A stretch of DNA of 26,468 nt from a virus. The notes beneath the pieces were generated by a model that had not been told where the DNA came from, did not search any database, and saw nothing but the letters and a program-made list of their open reading frames with translations. Shown one piece after another: positions 10,482-26,125 of the stretch. The stretch is taken from IMG/VR virus record IMGVR_UViG_3300032073_000207, positions 1 to 26,468 of that record; one strand, 5' to 3'. Each line of letters begins with the position of its first letter. Position 1 is the stretch's first letter. A program made the translations under genes and the position numbers.

Positions 10482-11188
10482 TAGGGTAAGGTCTCCTCAA
10501 GTTTTAAAGAAAATGTATATAGCCCTTCTTTGTTCAAGGAGTATTCCTGTACATCAGTAGCTATCACCCTTATTAAAGGGTTTGTGAAAATTACGTCTGA
10601 GTTATTTTGAGTAGCTTTTTGCAAGCCTGGCATAAAGTGAATTATACGCTCATCTGTTGCAGGTTGAACACTATTATAGTGAGTATTTGTTTCTACTTGA
10701 GTAACTCTATATGTTTTTTTATGGTTAGAATCATTAGCATCGGTAATTGTAAATAAGTCACCAGGAGTGGGATTACCTGCGGTAAAGCCGTCTATTTTCA
10801 TAGAAGTAGCGCCTGCAATGGCTGCTCCGTCTACTTTAATTGTTCCTGCCATAGAACTATCCTGAGGGCTTCTATACTGTGGCAAACTTACGAAAAAAGG
10901 CTTTAAAGAACCTCTACGATTGATTAAAAAATTGTAAACAGGTTCAAACTCAGTTCTAGTCATTGGATTATAAGAAATGCTAATATCCCATTGATGAGAC
11001 TTTAACGCTCTTGCAACCATTCGTCCAGAGTTTGTACGAGTTTTCATTATAGGAGACTTTGAACTTAGAGATACAGATGCAAAACCAGGGCCTGTTGACC
11101 CTGTTGCATTACCGCTTGTTCCATCTCCTCCATCAGACCCAATTGCATAGTTGGGATCTGGAAGTACATTTTGATAATCAATAGCCAT
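10481..11188 (-). CDS. Distal tail-type / minor tail protein (235 aa)
   Basis: This 235-aa protein lies between the tape measure and the tail-tip protein, the usual place of distal tail or gpM/gpL-like proteins that join tube to tip. Residues 1-40 are Gly/Ser-rich and probably flexible (GSDGGDGTSGNATGSTGPG). Residues ~50-103 hold the most family-like part: a basic segment (RMVARALKSHQWDISISY) and MTRTEFEPVYNFLINRRGSL followed by KPFFVSLP. The pattern 'f..l..fl..rrG...pF...lP' recurs in minor and distal tail proteins. The C-terminus is beta-rich (NPLIRVIATDVQEYSL, GLYTFSLKLEE). It overlaps the neighbouring genes at both ends by TAATG, so its translation is probably coupled to the tape measure. 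The exact homologue in model phages is not certain. Confidence 0.7.
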   Translation of the reverse strand: MAIDYQNVLPDPNYAIGSDGGDGTSGNATGSTGPGFASVSLSSKSPIMKTRTNSGRMVARALKSHQWDISISYNPMTRTEFEPVYNFLINRRGSLKPFFVSLPQYRSPQDSSMAGTIKVDGAAIAGATSMKIDGFTAGNPTPGDLFTITDANDSNHKKTYRVTQVETNTHYNSVQPATDERIIHFMPGLQKATQNNSDVIFTNPLIRVIATDVQEYSLNKEGLYTFSLKLEETLP

Positions 11189-14100
11189 TAGTCTGTATAT
11201 GCTCCATCACTGATAGTCTCTAAGAAAGGCTGTCCGTGCTCATTCGCTGCTTCGCGTATCATTCTTATTATATGTCCTTTTTGTCTTACTAGTACATCCT
11301 CTACACCTTGGGCGTCTACCGCACTAATATTAAAGTTTACATTTGTAGGTTCTCCGCCGCCTACTCTACCTGCAGGTATTATCTCTCCTGGAGTTTCTGG
11401 CATAAACAACTCAGGACCCTGCTCTCCAACTACGTATCCTCCAGCGTTGCGATGCTTATATCCAGAGAAGGCTCCTGTAGGTTTAAAGTTACTTGCTCCT
11501 GTACCTACACCATCCTCTCCTCTCATATAAGCCAGCTCACCTGCTGCATTATTACCTTTTGCAAGATCAACAGTATTGTTTCTTTGGCCCATGTTTACTT
11601 CACTAGGTCTACCCGTTTCTGCTATAGAGTTACCTCCTCCTTGATAAGAAGTACTAGCAATAGTTGCTAACTGTAACGCTCCCATGGCTCCAAAAAATGC
11701 CATCTTAGGAATATTAGGCGCAGACTCCATAATAGCCTGCGCGGTAGAAATAACTACTTGAGCCATGCTCATTTTCTTTTTCATATTGAAAGCTTTTCTT
11801 TCAATTTGTTCTTTTTTCTTTTCAAGAGCCTTAATTTTTGCAATAGAAGCAGCAGATTTTCCGTCTCTTTTCTTTTCTGCTGCTATTTCTTTATCTATAG
11901 AGTTTACTTTATTTTGTGCTGCTCCGCCAACTATCTGACTTAAAGCTCCTATACCGGCCCCTATTTTTTCAGCAGCACTTCCTTCCATTTCAAAAGCTGC
12001 CGCCATAGCATCAGCTCCTAACAACATCTGAGACACTCCTTCACCATCAGGACCCAAAGCTGCCATATCTTTTGCAGCGCCTTGTAAAGTTCCTCGAAGC
12101 TCTCCCATTGTAAGTGCTGTATTTTTTAATTTGTCTACAGGATCTTCGGTTTCTCCCGTACTGCTACTACCTGTATCAACTACAGGATCTGTAGTAGTGC
12201 CACTCGAGTTTGTGGTTGTATCATCAGTTTTATCGTCATTTTTACCGGCATCAACACTAGTAGGAGGTTGGGTCTCAGTAGGATCAGGTACTATAGCAGG
12301 ACTACCCGTGTTAGACGCAATTGTCTGAAGTATAGTATTCCCTTCTCCCAATAATCTATTTGCTTCATCTCTAATTAGATTTGCTTTGTCTTCTGTTGAA
12401 GTAATCTTTGCTATAATAGGATCTTCTTCGGTAGTTTCTGCGCCTTTTACAGCACCTTCTACAGACCCTGCCGCTGCGGTTCCAAAGATAGATGCAATAG
12501 CTCCTGCAAATCCTCCAGCTTTTCCTGCTGCGGAGTGTGCGGCATCTTCTTCCATTTTTATACGCGCCGCAACTAGTTTAGTTTCTTCTTCTGCTGTTTC
12601 TATCTTTGATGTATTTAGATCTTGTTGGAGTCTCATTGCAGTACGAGAAGCTCTTAGTACTGCTGCTTCCTGTTGCGTTAATATACCTCCAGAGGCTTCC
12701 ATCTCTGCTCTTAATAAATTAAACTTAGCCTCAAGTAGAGCATTTTCAGCTTTTAGAGTCTTCTTTGCCATCGCCTCCTTTGCTTTTGCAAAAACAAGCT
12801 CTGCCTGCCTATTCTCTTGAGCAATCTTTGCGGCTTCACTAGCGCTTGCAATGTTTCCAGCACTGTCCGTGTTTGCAATTTCTCTTATACTTTGACGTAT
12901 TTCAAATTGCTTTTCCTGCTCTGCAAGAATACCTTTTTGAGCGTCATGCTGACTTTTGAGTATAGAATCTATTTCTATCTCTTTTTTGAGACGTTCTGCA
13001 GTTTCCATACTAATTTGTGCAGTAGTATTTGCTTGCTCTTGTAGCAAGCCCAACCCTAACGATAATCCATCGTTAATATTCTGTTCCATGGTAGCGTACG
13101 CAGCATCAAGACCGGAAATTGTTTGAGTTAGCGCATCAGTACTTATTAACTTAGCCGCTGTCTCACCTTCTTTTAATTTTGAGTTTGCTTCAGTTCTCTT
13201 TTGATTAATAACATCAACTTCTGCTTTCAATACTTGCAGACGCATTCGTGTCATTTCTTTTTCTAATTTAAGAGCAGCTTTCTTTGTATTTGCTTCTGCA
13301 ACCAGTCCTTGAACTTTCTTTTTGAGTACTTCATCATCTTGTTCAAGAAGTGCAATTTGAGAAGGTAAAAGTTTACCGTCCATACCAGCTTTTCTATTTG
13401 CAATACTTTGGTTAAGTTTAGCTATTTTTATAGAATTTGTTAACTCTTCGCTATTTGCTTTATTTATCTTTTTAGTTACATCTAAAATAGCTTTTTCTAC
13501 ACTATGCTCTTCTTTAAGTGCGGACATTAGCGTCTTCTTTTGCTTAACAATTGTTTCTTCGATGGTAAGCTTTTGACCTACGATTAGGGCTATTTCTCCT
13601 GTGATTATTTTTTCGTCATGCTTTAGTTTGTTTATGCGGGCTGTAGTAGCTTCGTCCTCTGCTCCTGAGTCTGTTAATCTTTTGTGCTCTTCCGCAACAA
13701 ACTTTAATCTTTCCCTTGCATCTCCTTCTCTTAAGGATCTAAGACTTTCTTCGGCCGCCATTCTTTCGTTAATACTTGTTAAAGTATTTGACTTTTCTTG
13801 ATTTACCAAAGCAAGTGCATTTTTTTGAATCTGCTCTTGTTGCTTGAAAAGTTGTAATCTTTCTTGCTCCGCATTAAATAGGTTATTAGTTTCCTCTATT
13901 CTCTCTAGTATAAGTGCTTTTGCAGCTTTTGCTGCGTCGCCGTCTAGAGCTGCAGTAGCAGCTATACCTGCTGCTTCTAACTTTTCTAAAGTCTGCTTAT
14001 CTTTCTTTCTTTGGGAATGGCTTCTTCTACCACGTCTTTTTTCTTGCCTTTCTCTTTCCGCTGTAATCGCTTCCTGCGCAGCTGTTTCAGCATCTACTAA

Positions 14101-16383
14101 ACTCTGTAATTGCGCTTCTTCTGCCTTTACATTAAAAATGACTGCTGATTGGCTATCGATATTTTCAGCTATAATCCTAGTTATGTCTGATCCATCCGTC
14201 TCTGCTAATTTTGGAACTAGTTTTAGAGTACCCTCTTCATCTCTTTCTCCACTAGTAAGGCTATTTCTCATTTCATTAATAGCACTTGTTACACTATCTA
14301 GCTCAGTCTTAACGGCATTTGCATTTGCAAATTCCTGTAAAGGTGTTCTTGCATTCTTGAAAGATTCTCCTACGGACTGTACGGCTCTTGATTGTAGTAC
14401 TAACCTGTCTATTTCGTCTTCAATTAAAGCAAGATTTGCTCTTCTTTGTTTTATTGAGCCAGAGTTTAAAGCTTTTTCAACAGATTGAAAACCCAATCTC
14501 TTACTTATCATATCATTAAGTGCGCCTGAAGATCCTACCAGATCGATAATAGCACTTCTTTGGGCACTAAAACTTTGTCGGATTCCTTGACCTGACTTTT
14601 TTACCTTCTCGTATTGTGCATCAAAAGTACTTAAAACATTTGCCATCGCCTCATAAGCTTTGGTAGTATTTTGTATTTTTCCTGATCCATCAGCAAAAAA
14701 TTGATTAAGCTCTTTAACGTTCCCCGAAAGTTCTTCGGTTAACTCACTTAACTTTTCCTCTTGAGCTTCAAACTCCTTAAAAGCCTCGCTTTTAAGAGCT
14801 TCAACAACAAACATTACGGCATCCTTCAGCATTGTAAACGCCATTATAGCCATGCCTACAAAACCCATCATACTCATTATAGCGGCACCAGCTGTTTTAG
14901 CTGCCATAGCCAAGCCATTTGCAGCAAGACGAGCAACGTTTAAAGCACCTGCATAAGTAAAAGCTTCTCTACTAGCTATCTTTAGAGCGCTTTGTTGAAG
15001 TTTTAAAGCTCTCATTGTATTTTTAAGAGCCACTCCAAATCTACCTTCTGCAAGTGCGGCCTGTGCTTTTGCAGCAGCTAGCTGAGCCGAACTATTACGA
15101 CCCTGAGATTGGGCAATATTTAAATTCGACATAATCTTTTTAGAGTTAGCTATTCTTCGATTATATTCATCTTGGCTTATGCCAGTTTTTTTAAGAGCTT
15201 TTCCTTGAGCGTCTACAAGAGGCTTGCCTTCTTTTAGTATTTTATTTCTTTTATTTAGTAGCCCTAAATTTGTTCTTTGTGATTGGACTTGTCCGTCCAT
15301 TGCTGCCTTATACTCAGAGCTAGATACATTACCATCTTTCATCGAAGTAATAACATTGTCTAAAGCTTTTGAAGATAAGTTTAGAGGTCTTATACCTCTT
15401 AAAGTATCTGCATTAAGTCTTTGCATATTTTTAGAGTTGAGTGCCGTTGCTTTTGACATGTCAGTAAGACTACCAAGTACTTGCCCTGAAATAGTTGCTG
15501 CAAAAGCGGCCATAGCACCCATAAGTGCTGTAGGGCTTTCTGCCAAATAGCTTACTATAGGGGCTAGAACTTCTGCTAAGCCTCCAATGCCGCTTTTTGT
15601 GATATTTGCAAAACCTGCGGCTAGCTTATCATAAGCATTAACATCTACATCACCTAACGCTCCAAACTTCTTCTCGCCCTCTTCAAGGGTAGCATTTAAG
15701 AATGCTTGTCGTTTTTCAAAGTTTGTTAGTTCTGATACATTTTTACCTATACTGTCGGCATACGTTTTTGAAGCGTCGTCTAGACGAACCATAATACCTA
15801 ATTCATCAAGTAATTCTGGTTCGAGTTTTGTTACACCTCGAGTAAGACGACTAATTGAATCTTGTACATCTCGTCCTAAGGCTCCTGCTGCTTTTCTGGC
15901 AACTTCACCAAAACGTTCAATACTAGAAGGGTCTATGCCTGCACTTGTGATAAGTGCCGTAGATCTCATAGCCTCCTCTAAGCTAATAGCATGCCCAGTT
16001 GCTTCTACTAATCCTTTAGAAAGGGTGTGCATAGCAAGACCGGAAGCCTGACCCATGGCGACCAGTCCTTCTTCTAATTGAGTAGCACGAGCTGCTCTAG
16101 AAAGTGCTCCGAATGTAGCAGTTAAGGCAAAGATATTCGCGGCAAGACCTGCATAAGCACCTACTAACCCACTTCCGCCTCCTCCGATTTCATTACGCAT
16201 CTTTGAGAAAGCTTTAGTACTGTTCATTCCAGCTTGGGCAACACCTTTTTGACCTCTTTGATATCGATCATTGGCTTTTCCAGCTTTATCCGTTTGCTTT
16301 GCAGTCTTCTCAGCCTGCTGACCCATGGCTTTGAGAGTTCCGTCTTCGGAGATTTTAAACGTAAGAGTAACTGTATTCGCCAC
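11188..16383 (-). CDS. Tail tape measure protein (1,731 aa)
   Basis: The gene starts with GTG (16381-16383), overlapping the upstream stop as TAGTG. Its 1,731 aa have the classic tape-measure layout: an N-terminal helical region with a hydrophobic stretch at ~70-95 (GLVGAYAGLAANIFALTATF), further hydrophobic segments at ~265-305 and ~475-530 (AAIMSMMGFVGMAIMAFTML), and a long charged, coiled-coil-rich stretch at ~535-1300. A Thr/Ser/Asp-rich linker follows at ~1355-1420. A second hydrophobic segment (~1540-1580) leads into Gly-rich sequence with GGYVVGEQGPELFMP, a C-terminal signature of many tape measures. It sets tail length, is wrapped by the upstream chaperones during assembly, and is probably released at infection. 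I see no lysozyme or peptidase domain. Confidence 0.93.
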   Translation of the reverse strand: MANTVTLTFKISEDGTLKAMGQQAEKTAKQTDKAGKANDRYQRGQKGVAQAGMNSTKAFSKMRNEIGGGGSGLVGAYAGLAANIFALTATFGALSRAARATQLEEGLVAMGQASGLAMHTLSKGLVEATGHAISLEEAMRSTALITSAGIDPSSIERFGEVARKAAGALGRDVQDSISRLTRGVTKLEPELLDELGIMVRLDDASKTYADSIGKNVSELTNFEKRQAFLNATLEEGEKKFGALGDVDVNAYDKLAAGFANITKSGIGGLAEVLAPIVSYLAESPTALMGAMAAFAATISGQVLGSLTDMSKATALNSKNMQRLNADTLRGIRPLNLSSKALDNVITSMKDGNVSSSEYKAAMDGQVQSQRTNLGLLNKRNKILKEGKPLVDAQGKALKKTGISQDEYNRRIANSKKIMSNLNIAQSQGRNSSAQLAAAKAQAALAEGRFGVALKNTMRALKLQQSALKIASREAFTYAGALNVARLAANGLAMAAKTAGAAIMSMMGFVGMAIMAFTMLKDAVMFVVEALKSEAFKEFEAQEEKLSELTEELSGNVKELNQFFADGSGKIQNTTKAYEAMANVLSTFDAQYEKVKKSGQGIRQSFSAQRSAIIDLVGSSGALNDMISKRLGFQSVEKALNSGSIKQRRANLALIEDEIDRLVLQSRAVQSVGESFKNARTPLQEFANANAVKTELDSVTSAINEMRNSLTSGERDEEGTLKLVPKLAETDGSDITRIIAENIDSQSAVIFNVKAEEAQLQSLVDAETAAQEAITAERERQEKRRGRRSHSQRKKDKQTLEKLEAAGIAATAALDGDAAKAAKALILERIEETNNLFNAEQERLQLFKQQEQIQKNALALVNQEKSNTLTSINERMAAEESLRSLREGDARERLKFVAEEHKRLTDSGAEDEATTARINKLKHDEKIITGEIALIVGQKLTIEETIVKQKKTLMSALKEEHSVEKAILDVTKKINKANSEELTNSIKIAKLNQSIANRKAGMDGKLLPSQIALLEQDDEVLKKKVQGLVAEANTKKAALKLEKEMTRMRLQVLKAEVDVINQKRTEANSKLKEGETAAKLISTDALTQTISGLDAAYATMEQNINDGLSLGLGLLQEQANTTAQISMETAERLKKEIEIDSILKSQHDAQKGILAEQEKQFEIRQSIREIANTDSAGNIASASEAAKIAQENRQAELVFAKAKEAMAKKTLKAENALLEAKFNLLRAEMEASGGILTQQEAAVLRASRTAMRLQQDLNTSKIETAEEETKLVAARIKMEEDAAHSAAGKAGGFAGAIASIFGTAAAGSVEGAVKGAETTEEDPIIAKITSTEDKANLIRDEANRLLGEGNTILQTIASNTGSPAIVPDPTETQPPTSVDAGKNDDKTDDTTTNSSGTTTDPVVDTGSSSTGETEDPVDKLKNTALTMGELRGTLQGAAKDMAALGPDGEGVSQMLLGADAMAAAFEMEGSAAEKIGAGIGALSQIVGGAAQNKVNSIDKEIAAEKKRDGKSAASIAKIKALEKKKEQIERKAFNMKKKMSMAQVVISTAQAIMESAPNIPKMAFFGAMGALQLATIASTSYQGGGNSIAETGRPSEVNMGQRNNTVDLAKGNNAAGELAYMRGEDGVGTGASNFKPTGAFSGYKHRNAGGYVVGEQGPELFMPETPGEIIPAGRVGGGEPTNVNFNISAVDAQGVEDVLVRQKGHIIRMIREAANEHGQPFLETISDGAYTD

Positions 16384-16787
16384 TATTTCTTTCTCTTTAG
16401 CTTTTCCCTCTCTCGTTTCATGCTCTCATGAGATCGGTCAATTGCTCTTGATTCTAGCCATGTTAGAATCTCTAAAAATAATTGTTTATCTTCTACTCCG
16501 TAAAATTCTATATAATACGGTAAATTTGTAAAATCTTTGCCCATATACCCTATATCAGGAATAAGTCTATCGCCTAAACTTGAAAAAGTATTCAAGGCTT
16601 GAACTGCTATTTCTGGAAAGTCGTCCATATCGGGAGGAATTTCATCCGGATCAGGCTCTTTGTTCAACTGTTCACACATTTTGAAATAACGCTCTCGCGT
16701 CATTTTTCCATCACTATTCTTGAAGTACCTTTCCAGTCTTTTTAGCAATTGGTCCCTTTGATCCTGTACGAAAGTTATCAAGATCAA
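16383..16787 (-). CDS. Downstream tail-assembly chaperone frame (GT-type extension candidate)
   Basis: This frame overlaps the 3' end of the upstream gene by 74 bases and ends at the tape-measure start. Its first codon is TTG. The first ATG in frame is at 16701-16703, 10 bases after the upstream stop, with only weak GGA-type ribosome binding. From there it encodes an acidic segment (EPDPDEIPPDMDDFPEIAV) and a helical C-terminus ending in a Lys/Arg-rich tail (MKREREKLKRKK). In many siphoviruses two overlapping frames just before the tape measure encode the tail-assembly chaperones, the second being made as a fusion by programmed frameshift. Position and overlap fit that role. A separately started protein of ~106 aa is the alternative. 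I see no sequence motif that proves the function. Confidence 0.65.
   Translation of the reverse strand: MILITFVQDQRDQLLKRLERYFKNSDGKMTRERYFKMCEQLNKEPDPDEIPPDMDDFPEIAVQALNTFSSLGDRLIPDIGYMGKDFTNLPYYIEFYGVEDKQLFLEILTWLESRAIDRSHESMKREREKLKRKK
16714..16787 (-). other. Overlap zone and possible programmed frameshift between chaperone frames
   Basis: Across these 74 bases both frames are open. The downstream frame is +1 (equivalently -2) relative to the upstream one, not the -1 typical of lambda G/GT. A run of five A's at 16739-16743 (read GCT AAA AAG in the upstream frame) would let a lysine tRNA re-pair after a +1 slip. A full-length shift product would be about 259 aa. The frameshift is an inference. 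Confidence 0.4.
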
Positions 16788-17163
16788 AGACTACCTCATT
16801 AAGCCAAGTATCAAATTCTGTTGAGGAACTTACAAGAGTCTCTGCGTTTTCTTTAGTAAACTCTAGTTCTTTACTAGCATCTTCTCCTGAGATATCTACT
16901 AGAATAAGTGTTTCTAGATGCTCAAGAGTTAGGCCTCTCCAGTTTTTAACAACTGAGTTCGTAAATTCTGTTACGAACTTTTCTTCATCTAGTACTTCTA
17001 GTGCCTGTCGTGTTTTACGATCAAATTTAGTACTAGTGCACTTCTTACGAAGTCCTGTTAGTTCTTTTCGAGAAAGGTTTGCTACTTCTACTTCAAAGCC
17101 TTTCAATCCGGGAAAGTCAATCCAAGCTGCTTTTGTATCGACCATTAATTTTTTTAAATCCAT
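16714..17163 (-). CDS. Tail-assembly chaperone, upstream frame (G-type candidate)
   Basis: This 149-aa soluble protein starts at an ATG preceded by AGGAG (spacing ~7) and lies between the second tail-tube-like gene and the tape measure. It is predicted mainly helical and charged. It contains PGLKGFEVEVANLSRKELTG near residue 18, a Lys/Arg-rich segment (KKCTSTKFDRKTRQALEVLD) and a middle EFTNSVVKNWRGLTLEHL stretch. This layout, in which a substrate-like N-terminus is followed by 'f...v..W.g', is common in gpG-type chaperones that keep the tape measure soluble before tube polymerisation. The frame ends inside the next gene with a 74-base overlap in another frame. The assignment rests mainly on position, size and the overlap. 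Confidence 0.72.
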   Translation of the reverse strand: MDLKKLMVDTKAAWIDFPGLKGFEVEVANLSRKELTGLRKKCTSTKFDRKTRQALEVLDEEKFVTEFTNSVVKNWRGLTLEHLETLILVDISGEDASKELEFTKENAETLVSSSTEFDTWLNEVVFDLDNFRTGSKGPIAKKTGKVLQE

Positions 17164-17181
17164 TGTTGCTCCTAATTGCGG

Positions 17182-18096
17182 TTAGTTATAAGTAATTTTA
17201 CTACCAAGATTGGTAGTGTTATCGTTAGAAATCCAATCATAGCTTTGTGTAAATACGTCCCCGACATTATTTCGGTTGGTAAAAGAGCACGTGCCAAAAT
17301 TGAACTTAAAGCCTCTAAAGTCGTTTCCTGTTAATCCGTTTCCTGCTGTTATAAGTACTGGTACATTTTGTTTCCAATTTTGTACATCGGAGTTAAATGT
17401 ATCCAGTACATACTGGCCAACAGAACCGGAAACAATCCGCTTCTTTAGAGTGAAATTAGAGGGGTACATTGTAGTATTGACATTATGCGTATTACCAATA
17501 TTCAATGCTTTATTGACAGTTTCGTAAGGAGTCCATTCAATGTTATTTTGAAGCTCTACAGCTACAGAAAACACACCTTCGGTTAAGTTGGTGAGAGCCA
17601 TAAACACTGATAAATCTTTCATATAGTGAGGAGTCCTTGTCCCTCCTGAAAAAGAAGTAAAAGAACTATTTCCTCTTGTTAATCTTGATGCTTCTCCGGC
17701 AATTGTCAACTTGAGATTCTCTAATTTCTCAATTATGAATGTCCCATTAGTTATAACACAATTTTCCAGTCTGTAAACATCGTTAGGTAATTTTATGTAC
17801 ATTGTAAAGGTATTTAAAGTATAAGTACCTGACTTAAAATTAACTAATAAATTAAAAACTGTATCCAGCGCTGTTTCCGTAATCGCTGGGATAGTAAAAC
17901 TAAAATTTGCTGCATTGGCTTTCGTTATGTTGGAAGCATCATGCAAATTTTGTGGAGCATGTAGAGTTTTTTGCTCATACGTGCTATCCGTAAAAGTTTG
18001 GCTAAAACTTAAATCCTTAGTTACGTCAAGTCTTATTTTTCCCGCACCTGCATCAATATAGACCTCCGCTTCATTTTTAAAGTTGTAATTAGCCAT
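17182..18096 (-). CDS. Second tail-tube-like protein (304 aa)
   Basis: This 304-aa beta-rich protein parallels the major tail protein just upstream. Residues 12-42 (VYIDAGAGKIRLDV, then LSFSQTFTDSTYEQKTL) match the pattern of tube residues 13-44 (VFIKIGTAVWEVPV, then FSFSQATNASEVTL). Residues 107-140 (VYRLENCVITNGTF...LKLTIAGEASRL) match tube residues 174-207 (VYKIAECVVNEASADF...ATINWSGMGSII). This shared order suggests a duplicated tail-tube fold. It lacks the inserted domain of the tube protein. Possible roles are a minor tube ring next to the tip, as in phages with a tube-fold adaptor protein, or a second tube subunit. The start has GGAG 4 bases upstream and lies just after a terminator hairpin and promoter. 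Confidence 0.7.
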   Translation of the reverse strand: MANYNFKNEAEVYIDAGAGKIRLDVTKDLSFSQTFTDSTYEQKTLHAPQNLHDASNITKANAANFSFTIPAITETALDTVFNLLVNFKSGTYTLNTFTMYIKLPNDVYRLENCVITNGTFIIEKLENLKLTIAGEASRLTRGNSSFTSFSGGTRTPHYMKDLSVFMALTNLTEGVFSVAVELQNNIEWTPYETVNKALNIGNTHNVNTTMYPSNFTLKKRIVSGSVGQYVLDTFNSDVQNWKQNVPVLITAGNGLTGNDFRGFKFNFGTCSFTNRNNVGDVFTQSYDWISNDNTTNLGSKITYN

Positions 18097-18103
18097 TTGT
18101 CTC

Positions 18104-18137
18104 CGTATAATAAAAGGGGCTCGAAAAAGAGCCCCTT
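18104..18137 (-). terminator. Rho-independent terminator/attenuator before the second tail-tube gene
   Basis: A perfect 9-bp stem (AAGGGGCTC, 18129-18137, with GAGCCCCTT, 18114-18122) encloses the loop TTTTTC. On the minus strand it is followed directly by TTATTATAC. It lies downstream of the major tail protein gene and also downstream of the promoter at 18157-18185, so it should act on read-through and on new transcripts alike. On the plus strand a weaker T-run follows, but there is no plus-strand gene to end. Confidence 0.85.
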
Positions 18138-18156
18138 CTAACTTTTTCTATCTCAT

Positions 18157-18185
18157 AGTATAGTCCAAAAGACCTCCTATGTCAA
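18157..18185 (-). promoter_or_regulatory. Sigma70-type promoter after the major tail gene
   Basis: On the minus strand TTGACA (18180-18185) and TATACT (18157-18162) are separated by 17 bases (18163-18179). An A/T-rich stretch precedes the -35 box. The predicted start near 18150 gives a leader that enters the terminator hairpin after about 13 bases. The promoter lies in the 113-base gap between the two tail-tube-like genes. Confidence 0.75.
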
Positions 18186-18209
18186 GAAATATTTTTACGT
18201 ACCTTCTAC

Positions 18210-19547
18210 CTACGCAGGATCTCTACCAAAGTACTTAACAGTAAGTTCGTCGGTTTTATCGATCTGGCTAGGTAATGCGTGGAACGCAGTCTCTAGTGAG
18301 ATAACATCGTCGATAGAGTGCGAAGGCAACTCAAGGTGACAATCCAACATAGTCATCTCAACTCTAGGCAGATTAGGAGTAGTACCACCAATGGCGAATA
18401 CTAAACGGTGATTGTTTGTAACTGTAGTGGTATCACCCAGTAAGTCTTCAAACAATTCTGCACTTGAGTCAGTGTCATTATTCAAGTAACAAGTAAAGCT
18501 GCCTGATACTGAACGTGCACCTGTAACGTGACCAATTGGCTGGTTCACACTTCCAAGAGTTTCTGGAGTAAGGAAAGTAATATTGTTAGTAATAGTAACA
18601 TTACCTCCAGTTAGTACTAGTCCATACGTTTGCTCTTTAAATGCTTTACCACTTGCTCCTGTTGTAGCTGTTGAGTTTGCAACAAACTCAACGCCTACAG
18701 CAGCCGAAGTGGCTCCAATAGCAGTCCAGTTAGTATCTCCCACTACAGAGATCTTGTATCGAGTACCTGCTACTACTGGTACTACACCACTAGCAGTGGC
18801 TCCAATAGTAATTGCTGTTGAGGGATACTTACCCGCTGAAAGAGTAGTTAGTCGGTTACGAATAAAGTTATTTGTAGCAGTGTTACCTTCAGTGATAGTA
18901 GCTGTAGGAACTGTAGCACCTTCATCAGTAATAATTGAGCCCATTCCAGACCAGTTAATAGTAGCAATACCATCAATATCAAAGTCTGCAGAAGCTTCGT
19001 TTACAACACACTCTGCTATTTTATACACAGTTTTTGTGTCATTGTCTCCACCCATCGCAAAGAAAATATCTGCAGTACCTAACGTACTTTTGTTAGACTG
19101 TGCAAAGTCAATATCTGCCGAAGTAGTGCTGTGTGAAATATAGGTAGTTCCTCCTGAAGCTGCGGACTTAAACTCATCTGTAGCTGCATCATAGTACCCG
19201 GGACCTGCCATCATGCCCCAAAGAACCTCTTCCACTGCGTGATGGTCTCCATCAGTTTGAGAAGCCAACTTACCAGTTAACTGAGCAGCTGCATCACCTG
19301 CCCCAACTGAAGTAAATGGACGCATGTAAGTAGAGAAACTCCACTCTGCAGGTGCGAATGAGTCAGTAAACATTCGTCGTCCACGACGGCTTGAACCGCC
19401 TGTACCTGACATTTCGGACAGAGTTACCTCTGACGCGTTTGTTGCTTGTGAGAATGAAAATCCATCAAGAACAGGTACTTCCCAAACAGCGGTACCTATC
19501 TTAATAAATACTTTCGTATCTCTGCTAAAATATAATTGATCAGCCAT
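18210..19547 (-). CDS. Major tail (tube) protein with inserted domain (445 aa)
   Basis: This protein should polymerise into the tail tube. It starts at an ATG with AGGAG 8 bases upstream and lies directly after the tail-terminator candidate. N-terminal tube-fold features are VFIKIGTAVWEVPVLDGFSF (13-32), GSSRRGRRMF and the segment VYKIAECVVNEASADF (174-189), followed by IDGIATINWSGMGS. Between residues ~240 and 305 an extra module is inserted (GTRYKISVVGDTNWTAIGAT, GVEFVANSTATTG), after which tube-like strands resume (HVTGARSVSGSFTCYLN). The C-terminus ends LTVKYFGRDPA. At 445 aa it is longer than simple tube proteins (about 200-250 aa); the insert probably decorates the tail surface. A terminator and promoter follow the gene. 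Confidence 0.85.
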   Translation of the reverse strand: MADQLYFSRDTKVFIKIGTAVWEVPVLDGFSFSQATNASEVTLSEMSGTGGSSRRGRRMFTDSFAPAEWSFSTYMRPFTSVGAGDAAAQLTGKLASQTDGDHHAVEEVLWGMMAGPGYYDAATDEFKSAASGGTTYISHSTTSADIDFAQSNKSTLGTADIFFAMGGDNDTKTVYKIAECVVNEASADFDIDGIATINWSGMGSIITDEGATVPTATITEGNTATNNFIRNRLTTLSAGKYPSTAITIGATASGVVPVVAGTRYKISVVGDTNWTAIGATSAAVGVEFVANSTATTGASGKAFKEQTYGLVLTGGNVTITNNITFLTPETLGSVNQPIGHVTGARSVSGSFTCYLNNDTDSSAELFEDLLGDTTTVTNNHRLVFAIGGTTPNLPRVEMTMLDCHLELPSHSIDDVISLETAFHALPSQIDKTDELTVKYFGRDPA

Positions 19548-19611
19548 AGTTATTCTCCTATGATTATCTTGAAAAGGCTAGGACGTGAACGTTTGCTCGT
19601 GCCTGCGATTT

Positions 19612-20064
19612 CTAATAACGAACCTCTATAAGCATCTCTCCGACACCTAACGGCTCAAGTACACCTTCATCAGTATCTATACTGACGATTGTGATTTGTT
19701 GTGTAAATTGTTCCGTATTAGTACGGTCCAAATACATTAAAGTAGAATTTTGCTCTAGTACAGTCTCGACATCTTCTAGTAGTTCATCCAGAGCTAAAAC
19801 AGCATCTTCTGCTCGAACATAACATCTAAATGTAATAGATAAAAATCTGTCCTTATATCCGCCTCCTTGATAAGCTCTTGTTTCGGAACCGGCATTTAGG
19901 TGAACGGCAGGAAACTCCTCCACTTCATCCCAAAATTTCAAACGAGGAGAAACATTACCGCCTAAATCAGTTAGATATGTACCTCCTCCATTTATTTGCT
20001 TTAACTTATCCACAAGAGCCGCTACAATACTAGCACGCCGTGTAGTGTACGCTCTTTCTGTCAT
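19612..20064 (-). CDS. Tail terminator / tail completion protein (150 aa)
   Basis: The 150-aa protein is in the gpU-like place between neck proteins and the major tail protein. It starts with a helix (TTRRASIVAALVDKLKQING). A beta core follows, with FPAVHLNAGSETR, a Gly-rich turn (AYQGGGYKDRFLSITFRCYV), a helix (ALDELLEDVETVLEQN) and final strands (GVLEPLGVGEMLIEVRY). The order 'short helix, P-A-hydrophobic strand, f-strand, dimer helix, strand' is typical of tail-terminator folds that cap the tube and join it to the head. The ATG overlaps the preceding stop as TAATG and is preceded by AGGAG. A 64-base gap separates it from the tube gene; I see no strong promoter there. Confidence 0.72.
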   Translation of the reverse strand: MTERAYTTRRASIVAALVDKLKQINGGGTYLTDLGGNVSPRLKFWDEVEEFPAVHLNAGSETRAYQGGGYKDRFLSITFRCYVRAEDAVLALDELLEDVETVLEQNSTLMYLDRTNTEQFTQQITIVSIDTDEGVLEPLGVGEMLIEVRY

Positions 20065-21533
20065 TAAATTCTCCTAGTGTAGAATCTTCCGAGAGCCATA
20101 GTTGCTGCTATTTCTCTTACGGATTTGTCTATCAAATCTCGAGGATCTCTATTTCCGTTTGCCCAAGGAGGAGATCCCATCCCTTCTTCAAAAACTTGAT
20201 AAGGATCTCTTTGGTAGGTATAGCCTACACTTGGAAATCCTTTTGGTGTTTTAATAATATTCTCTACCTTTACACTATCTGCGAATCTCCCTGTAATATT
20301 GTTTAAAGCAGGGCTTCCCATATTTTTCCTTACAACAGAGGGTAATTGTTTATTAAACTCTGTTATTAAACGTAAAGGAGAAGAAGCAGGACCTTCTGTA
20401 ACTTTTCTCTCTCTTTTTACTCTTCCTGCTTTTACACCTTTACCTAAAGCTATTGCTGTTGCTGCTTTTGAAACTTTTGCTTTCTTTTTTGTAGATTTTT
20501 TACCGCTTTTTGAATTAGGTAATCCTAAATCGTTTTTTACAGTAACCTTTAAACTTTTACTTTTTTGATTTTCTACAAAAGAATTCAATACAGAACCCAT
20601 TAGTACTTTTTGCTTTTTTGTGTTAATACTGTCAGAGCCTTGCAAGTGTTCCAGTCCTGAACCTAGTTTTTCTGCCGCAGCTAACTTATCTATTGCTTTT
20701 TTTAATTGAGTTTGTAATTGCCTTCTTAAACTAGCAACGTCTACTCCACCGCTTTTTCCTTGTGTATTTAAATATGCTGATTCGATTGCTATAGTATGAC
20801 TGTCTTCTCTATCGTTTCTTACGGCAGTTACTAGACTAGTCATTCCCAATTCTTGTAAATCTTTTTGGGTAGCTCCCGAGGTTAAATTTGTAGAGGCTGC
20901 AATACCCTCAAAAGCATCTCGCATAAAACTCTCAAATATTCCAGCACCTTTCTCATGTCCTGCATGGAACAACTCTCTAGTACCTTTTTTAGTTTTTCCA
21001 CTTGTAGTGCGTAAGCTTCTATTTATCATTCTTCCGCTTTCTGGATTAACTTTTACAGTACCTTTTAAATGCTCCTGGATTCCATTAAAAAACTTTTTTA
21101 ATGCAGGCCTATAAAATCTTTTTACTTTTTGAAATACATCTGTAGCGTCTAAGACTACAGTTTTTCCTGAATATAATGTAATTACATTATTTGTTTCAGT
21201 ATTTATATCAAATCTAAAGCTGACAGTATTTGTCGTAGTTCTTAACTTACTATTTGGATTAGTCTTTGCCAGTTTAGTTAAGCCAGAAACTAAATCGTCT
21301 TTCATTGTTTTTGCTAGTTTATTTACTATTTGTCTATCTTTTTGTGTGAGTCCGTCGAAGCTTGGATGGTTTTCCAACTCTATCTTCATCTGGTCTGCCA
21401 TTACTTTACTGCTAAACTTAAATACGTGAACTCTTTTATTTGCTACTAGATCTCTATATATCTGTGAGCCTTTTGGAGACTTCAATGTGGCGTCCAACTT
21501 ATTACAAAAGGCTAGTAAAGATGAAGTACTCAT
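20064..21533 (-). CDS. Large neck/minor virion protein with HK97 gp10-like C-terminus (489 aa)
   Basis: Position between the head-tail adaptor and the tail terminator is where small neck proteins (HK97 gp10/lambda Z type, ~120-190 aa) normally lie, but this protein has 489 aa. The last ~100 residues match such a neck protein in layout: NNITGRFADSVKVENI, then YQRDPYQVFEEGMGSPPW and a final helix (DLIDKSVREIAATMALGRF). The first ~330 residues are helical and Lys-rich, with no motif I recognise. Residues ~338-378 are very basic (SKSGKKSTKKKAKVSK, KAGRVKRERKV). The N-terminal extension could be an internal head or ejection domain, or a second head-tail function. Both ends overlap neighbours as TAATG, so it is translated with them. 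Confidence 0.6.
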   Translation of the reverse strand: MSTSSLLAFCNKLDATLKSPKGSQIYRDLVANKRVHVFKFSSKVMADQMKIELENHPSFDGLTQKDRQIVNKLAKTMKDDLVSGLTKLAKTNPNSKLRTTTNTVSFRFDINTETNNVITLYSGKTVVLDATDVFQKVKRFYRPALKKFFNGIQEHLKGTVKVNPESGRMINRSLRTTSGKTKKGTRELFHAGHEKGAGIFESFMRDAFEGIAASTNLTSGATQKDLQELGMTSLVTAVRNDREDSHTIAIESAYLNTQGKSGGVDVASLRRQLQTQLKKAIDKLAAAEKLGSGLEHLQGSDSINTKKQKVLMGSVLNSFVENQKSKSLKVTVKNDLGLPNSKSGKKSTKKKAKVSKAATAIALGKGVKAGRVKRERKVTEGPASSPLRLITEFNKQLPSVVRKNMGSPALNNITGRFADSVKVENIIKTPKGFPSVGYTYQRDPYQVFEEGMGSPPWANGNRDPRDLIDKSVREIAATMALGRFYTRRI

Positions 21534-22117
21534 TAAAAGTTTTTATATAGATCCAAGACTCTTTTAATATGGTCTGGGAACGCTACATTATCACGCTGAC
21601 TAGAGGAAGAGTTGTGTTGAATACTTGCCCCTGCAATAGTCTGTCGTGCTTTATGTTCATTTTTAAGGTAGTAAGTGATTAAATCAATTACTGCTAACTC
21701 TAAGTCTGCTGGACAATCTGCATAACCTGCTTTATATGTAATCTTTACAGCAGCCGGACCGCCGGGCCAGTTCTTTTTACCACCATTAGTACTAACTCTG
21801 TAAATTACATCTAAGGTCGTATCTGCAAAGTACTCGGTGCTGGGTACAGTAGTATAACTAGAACTGTAATCATCCCTTTCCTCTACAGACACTATTGAAA
21901 CTAAAGGAGTTTCTGTCAGTTGTACTAAATTTGTCGCCCAGTTAATACTGAACGTTTCTACCTTATTTGACGAGTAGTGATCAACAATACTGTTACCACA
22001 ATAAGTTTTTACTAATTGACTCACAGACGCTATAATAGAATTAATCCGAGAATCATCCTTCGTGCTTACTATAGCTTCCGAAATCTTATATTTATCTATG
22101 TCTATCAAGTTTGCCAT
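21533..22117 (-). CDS. Head-tail connector/adaptor (gp6-like, 194 aa)
   Basis: The protein is the first gene after the capsid and its terminator, the usual place for the adaptor that binds the portal. The N-terminal helices (SRINSIIASVSQLVKTYCG) end in the YCGN turn common in gp6/gp15-type adaptors. A beta region follows (VQLTETPLVSIVSVEERDDY), then PAAVKITYKAGYADCPADLE and a helix (LAVIDLITYYLKNE). 'AvkItYkAGy...Pa.le.Av..l..y.y' is a well-known signature of phage head-tail connector families. It should form a ring under the portal and help seal DNA in the head. Its stop overlaps the next start by one base. Confidence 0.82.
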   Translation of the reverse strand: MANLIDIDKYKISEAIVSTKDDSRINSIIASVSQLVKTYCGNSIVDHYSSNKVETFSINWATNLVQLTETPLVSIVSVEERDDYSSSYTTVPSTEYFADTTLDVIYRVSTNGGKKNWPGGPAAVKITYKAGYADCPADLELAVIDLITYYLKNEHKARQTIAGASIQHNSSSSQRDNVAFPDHIKRVLDLYKNF

Positions 22118-22133
22118 TTATAAGTCCATTAGT

Positions 22134-22160
22134 AAAAACTTGGGGGAGATGAACTCCCCC
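22134..22160 (-). terminator. Rho-independent terminator after the capsid gene
   Basis: A 7-bp G/C-rich stem (GGGGGAG, 22154-22160, with CTCCCCC, 22142-22148) has a 5-base loop and is followed on the minus strand by AAGTTTTTAC. It lies 22 bases after the capsid stop and before the adaptor gene, so it probably limits read-through from the abundant capsid message. The T-run starts after two other bases, so strength may be moderate. Confidence 0.7.
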
Positions 22161-22182
22161 TCGTTTCTATACTTTTTCAGTA

Positions 22183-23544
22183 TTAAGCTACAAGATCAAT
22201 CTTAACACAAGGCTGGTCTGCACCGGCACCTGCAACGATTTCTTCGAAACCGAGAGACTGACTAGCAACGATAACGCGACGCTGGTTCATTACTTCGTAA
22301 TCCTGCTCAACGGTTACACCGCGAAGACGAGGCATTACGTAGTTACGAGTGTAACATGCGAATGCTGCTGGGATACCTGCTGCTTCTGCAGGGAACTGAT
22401 CAGATACTACTACTGGAGTACCGTAAACGGCTCCGATAGTACCCGTTACACGAGCTGCAAGATCAGATCCTACTTCGTCCAGAGTCTGGAAGCTAGCATC
22501 TTCGAGCAAGTCGTAGTACATGTTCTGGCTTACGATGTAGGCCAAATCAGTTGGGTTCAAGCCGTACTTGCCCATTTGCTGACGTGCTGCAAGCAGTCTT
22601 GCTGAAGTCATCTTAACACCATCAGAGATGTCCATAGTTGCTGCTGCTGCTGCTGCAACACCGTCAAGACCGACGATAGTGCCGTTACCGTTAAGAACAA
22701 CAGATTCAACAGCTTTTGCGTGAGCGCGAGCTACTGATTCAACAATCATAGGCATCAAGTTAATAAGAACTTGCTCGTCTACATCGTTGTCCATGAACGA
22801 GCTTGAAATCAAGCGATAAGCGTTCAGGATTACTTGCTTAGGCTGGAACTTATTAGCGTTGCCGCCAGTGTTGCCTTGATTCTGCAAGTTACCAGAGGTA
22901 GCATTGATTGCCCATGCAGCCGCGTCAACGTCAGGCTGGATAGGAAGTACAGTTGCTGCACCATTTACAGGGATTTCACGGAACAAACGAGCTACTTTCA
23001 ACTCATTCATGATTTCTTTCTCGATGAGACTAGAAACTTCCTGATCAATATCAGCGGCTGCTGTAGTATAATCGATACCTGCTTTTTCTTGTAAGTCACG
23101 AGCGAACTCAGTGTTCATACCCTTACGAGTCATAACACCCAATAGGTGAGCTTTCAAGAACTCTTGGCCCCACTTAGATACATCACCCTTAGAAGAACGG
23201 TCAGTGAAAGACTTCTTGCTATTTTGCATAGCATCGATCTCTGCTGATTTCTCTTCCAACTCAGACTTATACTGCTTGAGTACTTCGTCCATTTTTGCGT
23301 CTTTTTCAGCTAGCTTAGCTTCAACGTCGGCCATAAGAGCTTCAACGCCGGTTTGTACGCCAGTTTTAACGCGGATTTCTTCGGCTTCAACAGCCTGTGC
23401 CTTTTCAACTTCTGCTTCGGCTGCTGCCTTTGCTTCTGCTTCATCAGCTGCTTTTTGCTCGGCTTGCTTCATAGCAATCTTAGCAGCTGTGTCTTCAGCT
23501 ACCTTCTTTGCAAAAGCTTCCAAGTCGATGTTTTGATTATCCAT
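22183..23544 (-). CDS. Nested frame: scaffold domain plus major capsid protein from internal start
   Basis: Inside the fusion frame, ATG 23542-23544 (Met208 of the fusion) is preceded by AGGAG at 23551-23555, 6 bases away: as good a ribosome-binding site as any in the window. The product, 453 aa, would start MDNQNIDLEAFAKK. It would consist of an acidic-basic Ala-rich coiled coil followed by the HK97-fold capsid domain, the same layout as HK97 gp5 before delta-domain cleavage. It could supply most of the capsid subunits, with the fusion adding a few protease copies. This in-frame nested design resembles lambda C/Nu3, where the nested product is scaffold. The internal initiation is inferred from sequence only. 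Confidence 0.55.
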   Translation of the reverse strand: MDNQNIDLEAFAKKVAEDTAAKIAMKQAEQKAADEAEAKAAAEAEVEKAQAVEAEEIRVKTGVQTGVEALMADVEAKLAEKDAKMDEVLKQYKSELEEKSAEIDAMQNSKKSFTDRSSKGDVSKWGQEFLKAHLLGVMTRKGMNTEFARDLQEKAGIDYTTAAADIDQEVSSLIEKEIMNELKVARLFREIPVNGAATVLPIQPDVDAAAWAINATSGNLQNQGNTGGNANKFQPKQVILNAYRLISSSFMDNDVDEQVLINLMPMIVESVARAHAKAVESVVLNGNGTIVGLDGVAAAAAATMDISDGVKMTSARLLAARQQMGKYGLNPTDLAYIVSQNMYYDLLEDASFQTLDEVGSDLAARVTGTIGAVYGTPVVVSDQFPAEAAGIPAAFACYTRNYVMPRLRGVTVEQDYEVMNQRRVIVASQSLGFEEIVAGAGADQPCVKIDLVA

Positions 23545-24165
23545 CTTGATCTCCTGATCTGCGGAATTAATATCCGCGCTTTGAGGTGTGTCACTAGCTA
23601 TTCCCGAAGTAATAACTTCATCCTTAGCCAGAGACTGACCTGCTAGATCTACACGATTTGTGAAAGTTTTTTTGAATTCTTCGTACTCTTCAGAAGAGTC
23701 AAAAGACTTCGCGAGCGAAAAAGTAGCCGATTGATTGCACGGTACCGATACTACAGATACCTCAAACAACTCAGCGTCCTTAATCATAAGTCCGTCGGTT
23801 TCCTTAATATAATCAGCATCCTTGACTCGGAAACCTACGGAAAAGGCCCCAAGAACACCGTCTTTAACTAGTTCTGCAACATTAGCGGGTGCAGACTTGC
23901 TAATCTTACACTCTAACTCCAAACCGTTAGGTCCAGATTTCAGACCAGTGGCTCGGCCAATTGGCTTGTCATAATCATGATTAAACAAGATAATTGGATT
24001 TTTTTCAAAGTTCTTTAGTCCACCTTTCTGCCAAGCTTCTGCTGAGATGGAGTCACCCGCGCGATCAAAATCAGCTGTACTTGCCATTCCGCGAATCATG
24101 ACAGAGCCATCGTCCTGTTCATGAGTCTTGAAAGTAGACGTCAGATTAAAGATTTTATTCATCAT
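22183..24165 (-). CDS. Fused HK97-type prohead protease, scaffold-like coiled coil and major capsid protein
   Basis: I place the start at ATG 24165 (660 aa): AAGGA precedes it, and it begins one base after the upstream stop (TAAGATG). Residues 1-155 are an S78-family prohead protease: NHDYDKPIG with His63, GAFSVGF with Ser109 and LFEVSVVSVP with Glu135 fit the catalytic triad. Residues ~156-207 are a linker. Residues ~208-330 are Ala/Glu/Lys-rich coiled coil, like the HK97 delta scaffold. Residues ~335-660 have HK97-fold capsid features (REIPVNGAATVLPIQP, ISSSFMDNDVDEQVLINL, LNPTDLAYIVSQNMYYDLL, RRVIVASQSLGFEEI). Protease and capsid are usually separate genes; here no stop separates them. An internal start could release capsid alone (next entry). 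A terminator follows. Confidence 0.9.
   Translation of the reverse strand: MMNKIFNLTSTFKTHEQDDGSVMIRGMASTADFDRAGDSISAEAWQKGGLKNFEKNPIILFNHDYDKPIGRATGLKSGPNGLELECKISKSAPANVAELVKDGVLGAFSVGFRVKDADYIKETDGLMIKDAELFEVSVVSVPCNQSATFSLAKSFDSSEEYEEFKKTFTNRVDLAGQSLAKDEVITSGIASDTPQSADINSADQEIKMDNQNIDLEAFAKKVAEDTAAKIAMKQAEQKAADEAEAKAAAEAEVEKAQAVEAEEIRVKTGVQTGVEALMADVEAKLAEKDAKMDEVLKQYKSELEEKSAEIDAMQNSKKSFTDRSSKGDVSKWGQEFLKAHLLGVMTRKGMNTEFARDLQEKAGIDYTTAAADIDQEVSSLIEKEIMNELKVARLFREIPVNGAATVLPIQPDVDAAAWAINATSGNLQNQGNTGGNANKFQPKQVILNAYRLISSSFMDNDVDEQVLINLMPMIVESVARAHAKAVESVVLNGNGTIVGLDGVAAAAAATMDISDGVKMTSARLLAARQQMGKYGLNPTDLAYIVSQNMYYDLLEDASFQTLDEVGSDLAARVTGTIGAVYGTPVVVSDQFPAEAAGIPAAFACYTRNYVMPRLRGVTVEQDYEVMNQRRVIVASQSLGFEEIVAGAGADQPCVKIDLVA
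23542..23555 (-). promoter_or_regulatory. Internal ribosome-binding site in the protease-capsid frame
   Basis: AGGAG (23551-23555), ATCAAG spacer and ATG (23542-23544), read on the minus strand in the fusion frame. It lies exactly at the boundary between the protease linker and the scaffold-like coiled coil, which favours a functional start over chance. Confidence 0.6.
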
Positions 24166-24166
24166 C

Positions 24167-24487
24167 TTAATCCTTTTTAACTGCTGGTTTAACAGCAGGC
24201 TTGACCGCAACCTTAGGTTCTGGCTTTGGTGCTTTAGGTGGAGCAGGTTTTGGTTTAGGAGGAGGATTTTCCTTCTTCTTAATTTCTGCCCACACTTCTG
24301 GAAGAGAGCTCTGCATAATACCTAACATGCGACTCCAGCTCCCAAAAAAATTCAGTACAAGTCCTGCTCGAATAGGTGTTCGTGCTTCAATATGTTCATA
24401 CTCACGCTTACTAAGTATTTTTCCTTCTTCTAGCATTACCATTGATACTGCTTCGAGGACCTTGCCTCTTTGTCTTAAACTTCCCAT
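24167..24487 (-). CDS. Small head-region protein with Pro/Lys/Ala-rich tail (106 aa)
   Basis: This 106-aa basic protein lies between portal and protease-capsid fusion. The N-terminal ~65 residues look helical (QRGKVLEAVSMVMLEEGKIL, ARTPIRAGLVLNFFGSWSRM). From residue ~75 the sequence is a disordered tail of Pro, Lys and Ala with short repeats (PPPKPKPAPPKAPKPEPK, then KPAVKPAV). The start is secure: GGAGG lies 5 bases upstream of ATG, and the ATG overlaps the portal stop (TAATG). The downstream ATG of the fusion follows its stop by one base. The gene order suggests a head-assembly or packaging accessory, but I do not recognise a family and do not assign a function. Confidence 0.7.
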   Translation of the reverse strand: MGSLRQRGKVLEAVSMVMLEEGKILSKREYEHIEARTPIRAGLVLNFFGSWSRMLGIMQSSLPEVWAEIKKKENPPPKPKPAPPKAPKPEPKVAVKPAVKPAVKKD

Positions 24488-25686
24488 TATTCCTCCGCTT
24501 CCTCTGTTTCCTCGACGGGTCTTCCGCCTTCATCTGGGTTAGTTGCTGAACCTGCAATGTTTGCAGGAACGCGTATTTCTTCTGTACCTTCAACAGGCTC
24601 AAAGCCTAATCGGTCTCTTGCTTCTGCTGGAGTAATAATACCTCCATTTACTAAAGATGTGTAGTATGCTGAAGCATCTCGTAATTCTGGCTGTAAAGCG
24701 GGGATATCAGAAATGTCCTCACGTAATTCAAAACCAAAAAATCTTTCGAGTCCATAATTAATTTTTCGAACAATAGGAAGTATAGTCTCAAGATAATACA
24801 TCCGCATATTTGGGCGAATGTTAGCGTTATTACCAGAATCCAACATAATTGGAGGGATTCCTAGCGCCTTTAAAATAATCTTTTCATTCTCATCTATCGA
24901 AGTTTGAAAATCTAATTCTTTAAAATTTACATTGGAAATTGAATCCACTTCAATTCCACCGTCTAAGATAAGAGGTCGTCTTCCTCCTGCATCCGGACGG
25001 TATCTTGCTTGCCAAGAAACCATCATACGTTCTTTAATTTTTTCGGAGAGTGTATTAGGAGATTTAAGTACTAAACCCGGAACGGCTCCGTTCTTAAAGA
25101 AATTATCTTGGAAAGCTCTCATGCTTTTCATGAGAATCATAGTGCGTAATGCAGGCTTTAGTCGAGGAACTCCGCGATATATGGAGTGGAAAGAGTTTTC
25201 TTTAATATGAATAATCTCATCAGGACTAAACGTAATATCATGCATTGTAAACTTTTCAATATACGTTTCTTTACTAGAATGAATACGTACATCTGTGGCC
25301 GGTAAGTGATAGAGATGAGCTCCATCAAAGTACATAAAAATATTACCATCAATTAAAAAATCAGTAATAAGATTACGCTTAAAGCTGTTAATATCTTGAT
25401 AAGGATTAGGAGATTTGTTTAAAAGAATATCTACCTTGGATCTCTTAATGCCAGGAACTACGCCTCGAAAAGCATTGTCTCTAGAAACAGTAGTAGGAAT
25501 CTCAGCTACATCATCTACGATCATATTTACGCCGCGATTAACGATTTCTAAGTCTTCATACGCTTTTTCATAACTAAAGCTGGGCTCTCGAGAAGAGTTA
25601 ATATCATTGCCCATATGAAGCTGTGCAGGATTTAACTTCTCCTCAACTTCTACGGGTTTTTTCTCAAAAATATTATACCATGCCAT
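24487..25686 (-). CDS. HK97-family portal protein (399 aa)
   Basis: This protein forms the dodecameric ring at the capsid vertex through which DNA enters and leaves. Family features in order: an N-terminal helix (YEDLEIVNRGVNMIVDDVAE, 43-62), LLNKSPNPYQDINSFKRN (88-105) with FLIDGNIFMYF (110-120), HLPATDVRIH, a FSPDEIIHIKE strand, RGVPRLKPAL (171-180), FFKNGAVPGLVL (196-207), and the segment DENEKIILKALGIPPIMLD (265-283) near the ring core. The C-terminus has the typical 'GGIITPAEARDRLGFEPVEG' motif, followed by an acidic end (EETEEAEE). Length is normal for the family. The ATG lies inside the end of the HNH gene (14-base overlap) with only a weak Shine-Dalgarno, which suggests coupled translation. 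Confidence 0.93.
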   Translation of the reverse strand: MAWYNIFEKKPVEVEEKLNPAQLHMGNDINSSREPSFSYEKAYEDLEIVNRGVNMIVDDVAEIPTTVSRDNAFRGVVPGIKRSKVDILLNKSPNPYQDINSFKRNLITDFLIDGNIFMYFDGAHLYHLPATDVRIHSSKETYIEKFTMHDITFSPDEIIHIKENSFHSIYRGVPRLKPALRTMILMKSMRAFQDNFFKNGAVPGLVLKSPNTLSEKIKERMMVSWQARYRPDAGGRRPLILDGGIEVDSISNVNFKELDFQTSIDENEKIILKALGIPPIMLDSGNNANIRPNMRMYYLETILPIVRKINYGLERFFGFELREDISDIPALQPELRDASAYYTSLVNGGIITPAEARDRLGFEPVEGTEEIRVPANIAGSATNPDEGGRPVEETEEAEE

Positions 25687-26041
25687 TATGTTTTTCTCTT
25701 TGAATCTCTACCCAACGCATTTGCTTTTTTGCAGTGCCTAATCCCGGGTCTTTGCCATAAATTGAGTGAAGCTTTATATGATGAGTATGACATAATGTAA
25801 CTGTGTAATCATATAGCTCAGCATGGTGTTCTTCTATAAAGTCATCCCGAAGTGCTTGTATGTATTCAGGATTGTGTTTGTTCTTTGTCAACCATTGATT
25901 TAGCAATGGTGTTAAACTGTAAAAATGGTGAAAGTCAAGCTGCTCTGTCTCATTGCAAATCTCGCAAGCGTTCCCTTTTTCATACTTGGACTTAGCCTTA
26001 TCTCGTACATACTTTACAACATCACGTTTTAACTTGGGCAT
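25673..26041 (-). CDS. HNH endonuclease near terminase (122 aa)
   Basis: This 122-aa basic protein has a clear HNH/zinc pattern: Cys26-x2-Cys29 (ACEICN), LDFHH with His38/His39, and LCHTHHIKLH with Cys84, His87, His88 and His92. It should bind a zinc ion and a catalytic metal and cut DNA. HNH proteins encoded beside terminase genes, such as HK97 gp74, are known to take part in DNA packaging with the large terminase, so a packaging role is likely; a homing-type nuclease is less likely because the gene sits neatly between terminase and portal and overlaps the portal start. A promoter lies just upstream. The start lacks a strong Shine-Dalgarno at normal spacing (GAGG is 12 bases away), and an out-of-frame ATG lies 7 bases upstream. 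Confidence 0.85.
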   Translation of the reverse strand: MPKLKRDVVKYVRDKAKSKYEKGNACEICNETEQLDFHHFYSLTPLLNQWLTKNKHNPEYIQALRDDFIEEHHAELYDYTVTLCHTHHIKLHSIYGKDPGLGTAKKQMRWVEIQREKHNGMV

Positions 26042-26102: not shown

Positions 26103-26125
26103 TAACTATTTTTCATCAGGTGTCG

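Follow-up and report, generated by a model that had tools for sequence, protein, structure and literature searches.

What does a near-consensus promoter accomplish when it stands directly before a terminator, in the middle of the genes for a phage tail? The question is raised by a locus in a 26,468-base stretch (hereafter the window), which makes up one virus record, IMGVR_UViG_3300032073_000207, and, judged from its sequence, represents part of the genome of an uncultured phage, a distant relative of T5. Its gene set is that of a long-tailed phage: portal, protease/capsid, tail terminator, major tail protein (MTP), p140-like protein, tail chaperone, tape measure and distal tail protein. A promoter and a hairpin lie between the MTP gene and the p140-like gene, with all parts on the minus strand (Table 1). 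Reading along that strand, the MTP stop codon is followed by an A-rich element, TTGACA, 17 nt, TATACT, a leader of 12-13 nt, the hairpin, a U-rich tail, a Shine-Dalgarno sequence and the ATG. The first-pass annotation had the letters and coordinates of the promoter right; the perfect 9-bp hairpin and T-rich tail that it placed about 13 nt past the predicted start are likewise borne out, and the second tail-tube-like gene it saw downstream matches PF23779, the p140 baseplate tube family. Two aspects went beyond it: the hairpin would serve the upstream major tail gene as a terminator too, and in some relatives promoter and hairpin come in reverse order.

Table 1. Coordinates in the window of the MTP/p140 junction and its flanking genes.
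Feature	Position	Strand	Evidence or remark
Major tail (tube) protein gene, MTP	18210..19547	-	phrog_3575, E 4.4e-46
A-rich UP-like element AAAAATATTTC	18186..18196	-	near-invariant AAAAA-A--TTC 5' of the -35 in promoter-then-hairpin and terminator-then-promoter junctions
-35 TTGACA	18180..18185	-	TTGACA or TTGACT in 109/109 promoter-then-hairpin junctions
17-nt spacer with GGTC (18174-18171) and GAC (18165-18163)	18163..18179	-	putative protein-binding element; 17 nt in 109/109
-10 TATACT	18157..18162	-	TATACT 82/109, TATAAT 27/109
Predicted transcription start	18149..18151	-	predicted from distance to -10
Leader GAAAAAG	18142..18148	-	complementary to CTTTTTC 18129-18123
Intrinsic-terminator-like hairpin, loop 18128-18123	18114..18137	-	hairpin here in 60/133 protein-found junctions
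U-rich tail, two of its Ts inside the stem	18106..18115	-	sequence
Shine-Dalgarno GGAG	18101..18104	-	sequence inspection; ATG of p140-like gene at 18096
p140-like baseplate tube protein gene	17182..18096	-	PF23779 E 6.4e-18, over Pfam cut-off; phrog_3889

The promoter agrees with the sigma-70 hexamers, sought at 16-18 nt spacing, in 11 of 12 positions across a 17-nt spacer. Only two sites scoring 11 or 12 of 12 occur within 8000-26468; a separate scan covering the whole window returned three, along with a single promoter-then-terminator pair. When the window was shuffled 60 times with dinucleotides preserved, sites of this score averaged 0.63 and the pair never arose, even at 9 of 12. Given also its conservation in relatives, the promoter-before-terminator arrangement is a real feature beyond chance, for which the attenuator or short RNA originally proposed were sensible options. 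Two further promoters of the same A-rich type (TTGACA-17-TATAAT) are found on the minus strand of the window: one at 26102-26074, 5' of an HNH-like gene, with no hairpin after it in the scan used for the junctions, and another at 1709-1681, 5' of an LtfC-like gene, with none visible by eye. The latter promoter and its leader (TATAATTCTGTAATGGAGGAAATCAAATG) are near-identical in five other loci. Across 14 records there are 36 matches to the A-rich type, 13 of them at MTP ends; 20 of the other 23, together with the 26102 site of the window, served as 21 control promoters. None of the 21 is followed by a terminator: 20 lack a leader hairpin at the junction threshold and one has an AT-rich hairpin with no U-rich tail.

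The hairpin, AAGGGGCTC-TTTTTC-GAGCCCCTT, is perfect over 9 bp (12 bp in RNAfold) and runs into TTATTATA, i.e. a GC-rich stem followed by a U-rich tract that is interrupted by an A, as in an intrinsic terminator. The RNA is predicted to fold at -20.3 kcal/mol (z about -4 to -5). At the MTP/p140 junction a terminator is thus placed between a promoter and its first gene, the arrangement of an attenuator. Stems vary in relatives with matched changes in both arms (e.g. GGGGCTC/GAGCCCC, GGGACTC/GAGTCCC, GGGGTCT/AGACCCC and GGGATGA/TCATCCC); these were compared by eye, as stems of unequal length fall out of register in a MAFFT alignment, from which covariation was not counted, and the pair types of the leader-loop survey described below are paired by construction. 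No Rfam family matches the window at the gathering threshold, and a riboswitch or known RNA family was rejected on this ground. Ribosome-mediated attenuation through a leader peptide was also rejected: 56 of 60 leaders have no ATG, GTG or TTG between start and hairpin. Elsewhere in the window, the end of the capsid gene carries a perfect hairpin (GGGGGAG/CTCCCCC, 22142-22160) that is terminator-like on both strands.

All relatives bearing the element are metagenome fragments. Against cultured phages, the DNA search gave one weak hit, the p140 protein no hit, and the MTP only distant T5-like phages (Demerecviridae). These share the order MTP, p140-like gene, tail chaperone, with MTPs 23-31% identical over most of their length in the listed records. 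They differ at the junction itself: Klebsiella phage Sugarland and Vibrio phage VCPH have at most 10 nt between the MTP stop and the start of the next gene, too little to accommodate the element. The p140 protein search yielded 20 loci, and the promoter and hairpin 5' of p140 are visible down to 46% protein identity. A 33-base pattern occurs in 107 stretches of IMG/VR, with 77 distinct copies among the loci collected to that point; when up to 3 mismatches are allowed, it is present exactly once in each of 15 records (26-73 kb). As this pattern presupposes the promoter, a search with the MTP protein alone was run; each viral scan had more than 580 relatives, of which at most the best 80 were taken. 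Altogether 188 distinct junctions were assembled, of which 133 came from the protein searches (p140 or MTP), which return the nearest relatives.

Within these 133 MTP-end junctions of nearest relatives, three layouts account for nearly all: 60 have the promoter and then the hairpin, 50 the terminator and then the promoter, and 16 the hairpin alone. Five of the seven junctions with neither lead into a second MTP copy and the other two come from one locus. An Aeromonas record, classed as terminator-first in the full set of 188 (51 such rows), was left out of the layout counts as its promoter-like site scores only 9/12. The gene 3' of a promoter-then-hairpin element is either p140-like or the tail chaperone, two unrelated genes over which the 60 junctions are split (37 and 23). 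The distance from the hairpin to the next ATG is mostly 14-20 nt in the p140 type and 25-38 nt in the tail-chaperone type; in both, the distance from promoter to hairpin is alike, and across all 109 promoter-then-hairpin junctions the hairpin begins 9-21 nt past the -10 irrespective of the distance to the next ATG. Thus, the hairpin goes with the promoter and not with the ATG. Leaders fold better than their shuffles (p<0.05) in 57 of 60 promoter-first junctions vs 2 of 49 terminator-first ones. The 50 terminator-first relatives have a homologous promoter with no terminator between it and the gene, which suggests that its job there is to transcribe the next tail gene. Some loci show further peculiarities. 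Six have tandem MTP genes. In two of these, the promoter at the end of the first copy has its -10 flanked by a long inverted repeat (GAGTATT-CACT ... AGTG-AATACTC), which is made up of spacer and initial transcribed sequence and lacks a U-rich tail. Three others have a large extra stretch in the N-terminal part of p140 (the match starts ~660-750 nt past the promoter) which by eye resembles a carbohydrate-binding domain.

The layouts have changed repeatedly. On a quickly built tree of 126 MTP rows with long branches, they need 16 changes, with at least 7 forced for the promoter-first layout by well-supported branches. Counted on the tree of the downstream gene vs that of the MTP, the changes number 4 vs 7 for 66 tail-chaperone rows and 5 vs 4 for 56 rows with p140 in that position; these mixed counts lend only partial support to a linkage of layout with the downstream gene. 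In one pair of loci with opposite layouts and different next genes (L157 and L280), identity of the MTP DNA is 84-96% as far as the stop codon and ~55% beyond it, and this drop right after the stop points to an exchange of the junction and downstream gene as a block.

How might such a junction work? At slightly better than an even chance, we read the element, which lies where the major tail gene ends, as a promoter-proximal attenuator that meters transcription into the next tail genes and probably controls their output. Building a tail takes tube protein in many copies and tip proteins in few. The strong sigma-70 promoter with its A-rich upstream element would start RNA near 18150, and the hairpin and U-rich tail would halt most of this new RNA after ~45 nt. 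The same hairpin would end the mRNA coming from the major tail gene, so that p140, the tail chaperone, the tape measure and the genes beyond would be reached by read-through polymerases alone, and the element would set a step-down from abundant tube protein to low-copy tail parts. We infer start, termination, read-through and control of the fraction read through; what the DNA displays directly is the sequence of both signals, how they are ordered and spaced, how well they are conserved, and the reverse order among relatives. The argument for metering by read-through is that RNA started at the window's promoter meets a terminator before any gene, and that this terminator would also stop the MTP polymerases. 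The 8 nt that follow the GC stem contain on average 5.5 Ts in promoter-first junctions, 6.6 in terminator-first ones and 4.9 where the hairpin is alone; the fewer Ts of promoter-first tails relative to terminator-first ones suggest that termination may be partial. However, a weaker promoter could meter equally, so a purely passive attenuator leaves the near-consensus promoter unexplained.

In a rival reading, a phage or host protein would bind the spacer, load onto RNA polymerase and carry it past the terminator late in infection, with only the ~45-nt RNA being made earlier, in the manner of lambda Q, AlpA or GafZ; we consider this possible but doubtful. The targets of AlpA in Pseudomonas aeruginosa (alpB, PA0807) have the same layout: a conserved element between -35 and -10 and, before the first gene, intrinsic terminators that start 26 or 54 nt past the start (excerpts of PMC7969949). 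They differ from the window, where the terminator starts ~13 nt past the start and ends the upstream gene as well, and where we identified no antiterminator. Similarly, the Q-dependent PR'-tR' regions of lambdoid phages have a promoter and then a terminator before the morphogenesis genes with a similarly placed spacer element, and 21Q needs -21 and -13 (excerpts of PMC6606751); GGTC and GAC in the window lie at about -24..-21 and -15..-13. In contrast to the Q systems, our group has no match to a Q family in 14 fragmentary records, and its element lies inside the tail block rather than before all late genes. Further, a sigma-dependent pause element was rejected: 36 distinct initial transcribed regions contain -10-like sequences no better than shuffles do, though a divergent form is possible. 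GafZ/GafY of the Caulobacter gene transfer agent cluster likewise have a putative binding element between the -10 and -35 of a promoter of phage-like structural genes, but there the terminator comes after the first gene and is built of 150-bp repeats (excerpts of PMC11150451).

The spacer itself gives mixed evidence on protein binding. It is conserved across the promoter-first group (15.4 bits), and the full 3+3 dyad is kept in 22 of 42 distinct spacers (19 GTC/GAC, 3 GTT/AAC). With kinship not controlled, one dyad pair covaries (25/42 complementary vs a shuffled mean of 16.1, reached in 0/1000), whereas the two others do no better than shuffling (97 and 208 of 1000). Against this, terminator-first spacers are also conserved (12.7 bits), with pyrimidine-rich CCTC replacing GGTC; the PF06530 antiterminator has no match in 14 records, all fragments, although the control search recovered it in E. 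coli and L. lactis; and between genes further downstream, within 8000-18096, no other strong terminator was noted. In T5, D5 has a role in late transcription. A D5-like regulator was rejected as a layout-specific partner as it is full-length in 5 of 14 records, and these five span all three layouts. A 72.9-kb promoter-first record carries, on one 26.9-kb piece, such a regulator (phrog_323, E 1.6e-44) with a partial NAD-dependent DNA ligase and DNA polymerase A, and two loci of a promoter-first phage encode ribosomal protein S21, PhoH, ThyX and a D5-like regulator. A bolder conjecture, rather improbable in our view, has lytic, T5-related marine phages using a new antiterminator. It would recognize the conserved spacer at just one promoter per genome, within the tail block, and by switching read-through of a terminator ~13 nt downstream would separate mass production of the tail tube from the later tail parts. 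Among the alternatives, a protein-loaded switch is the most interesting.

The remaining explanations fare worse. That the ~45-nt RNA is itself the product, acting in trans as a small RNA, is improbable: a strong promoter and terminator would yield a discrete short RNA, and the single copy in all 15 records agrees with this, but the loop and leader vary (UUUUUC, UUUCU, UUCG, GUAAAA, CAAAC), which leaves no shared seed, and the Rfam search is negative here too. Lower still we place the idea that the hairpin merely stabilizes the 5' end of the downstream mRNA or aids its translation. The p140-type spacing from the ATG in most rows would suit it, as would the weak hairpin in some terminator-first p140 leaders; yet the tail-chaperone-type hairpin, farther from the ATG, keeps the same promoter distance and has a U-rich tail. 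Six terminator-first p140 leaders show a weak hairpin near the leader start, with no U-rich tail, and 2 of 18 such leaders have a hairpin significant against shuffles.

A self-contained RNA switch, in which the competing leader-loop structure of the first-pass annotation would block termination through pairing of GAAAAAG with the loop, is very unlikely. The complementarity of 7 nt stands, in the window and in most close relatives; tail-chaperone-type leaders with GAAAATC often face a GATTTTC-like loop; and a match of at least 6 nt, G-U allowed, occurs in 63 of 88 distinct promoter-then-hairpin copies, more than in re-dealt loops (0/300), with kinship among copies not controlled. As a structure it is weak: in RNA up to the 3' arm the pairing is worth only -4.4 kcal/mol (z +0.26) and, by folding prediction, is displaced by the complete hairpin (-18.4 to -20.3 kcal/mol), and the match shrinks to 4 nt or less in 20 of 88 copies, being absent in several distant relatives. 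Given this weakness, the pseudoknot is not adopted as the mechanism. Scarcely credible is polymerase recycling, which has been reported after termination (PMC6978322), whereby the enzyme that ends the MTP mRNA stays on the DNA and restarts at the adjacent promoter: the two sites are close together in both orders, but 16 junctions have no promoter at all.

Among the papers listed in searches of an open-licence library, none describes such an element in its title or opening abstract. Under the attenuator reading, it would mark the step from tube to tip in a large group of uncultured marine phages, and the three natural layouts (promoter first, terminator first and terminator alone) offer a ready comparison for how phages set such ratios. 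If read-through proves to be controlled by a protein, the element would represent a new antitermination system outside temperate phages.
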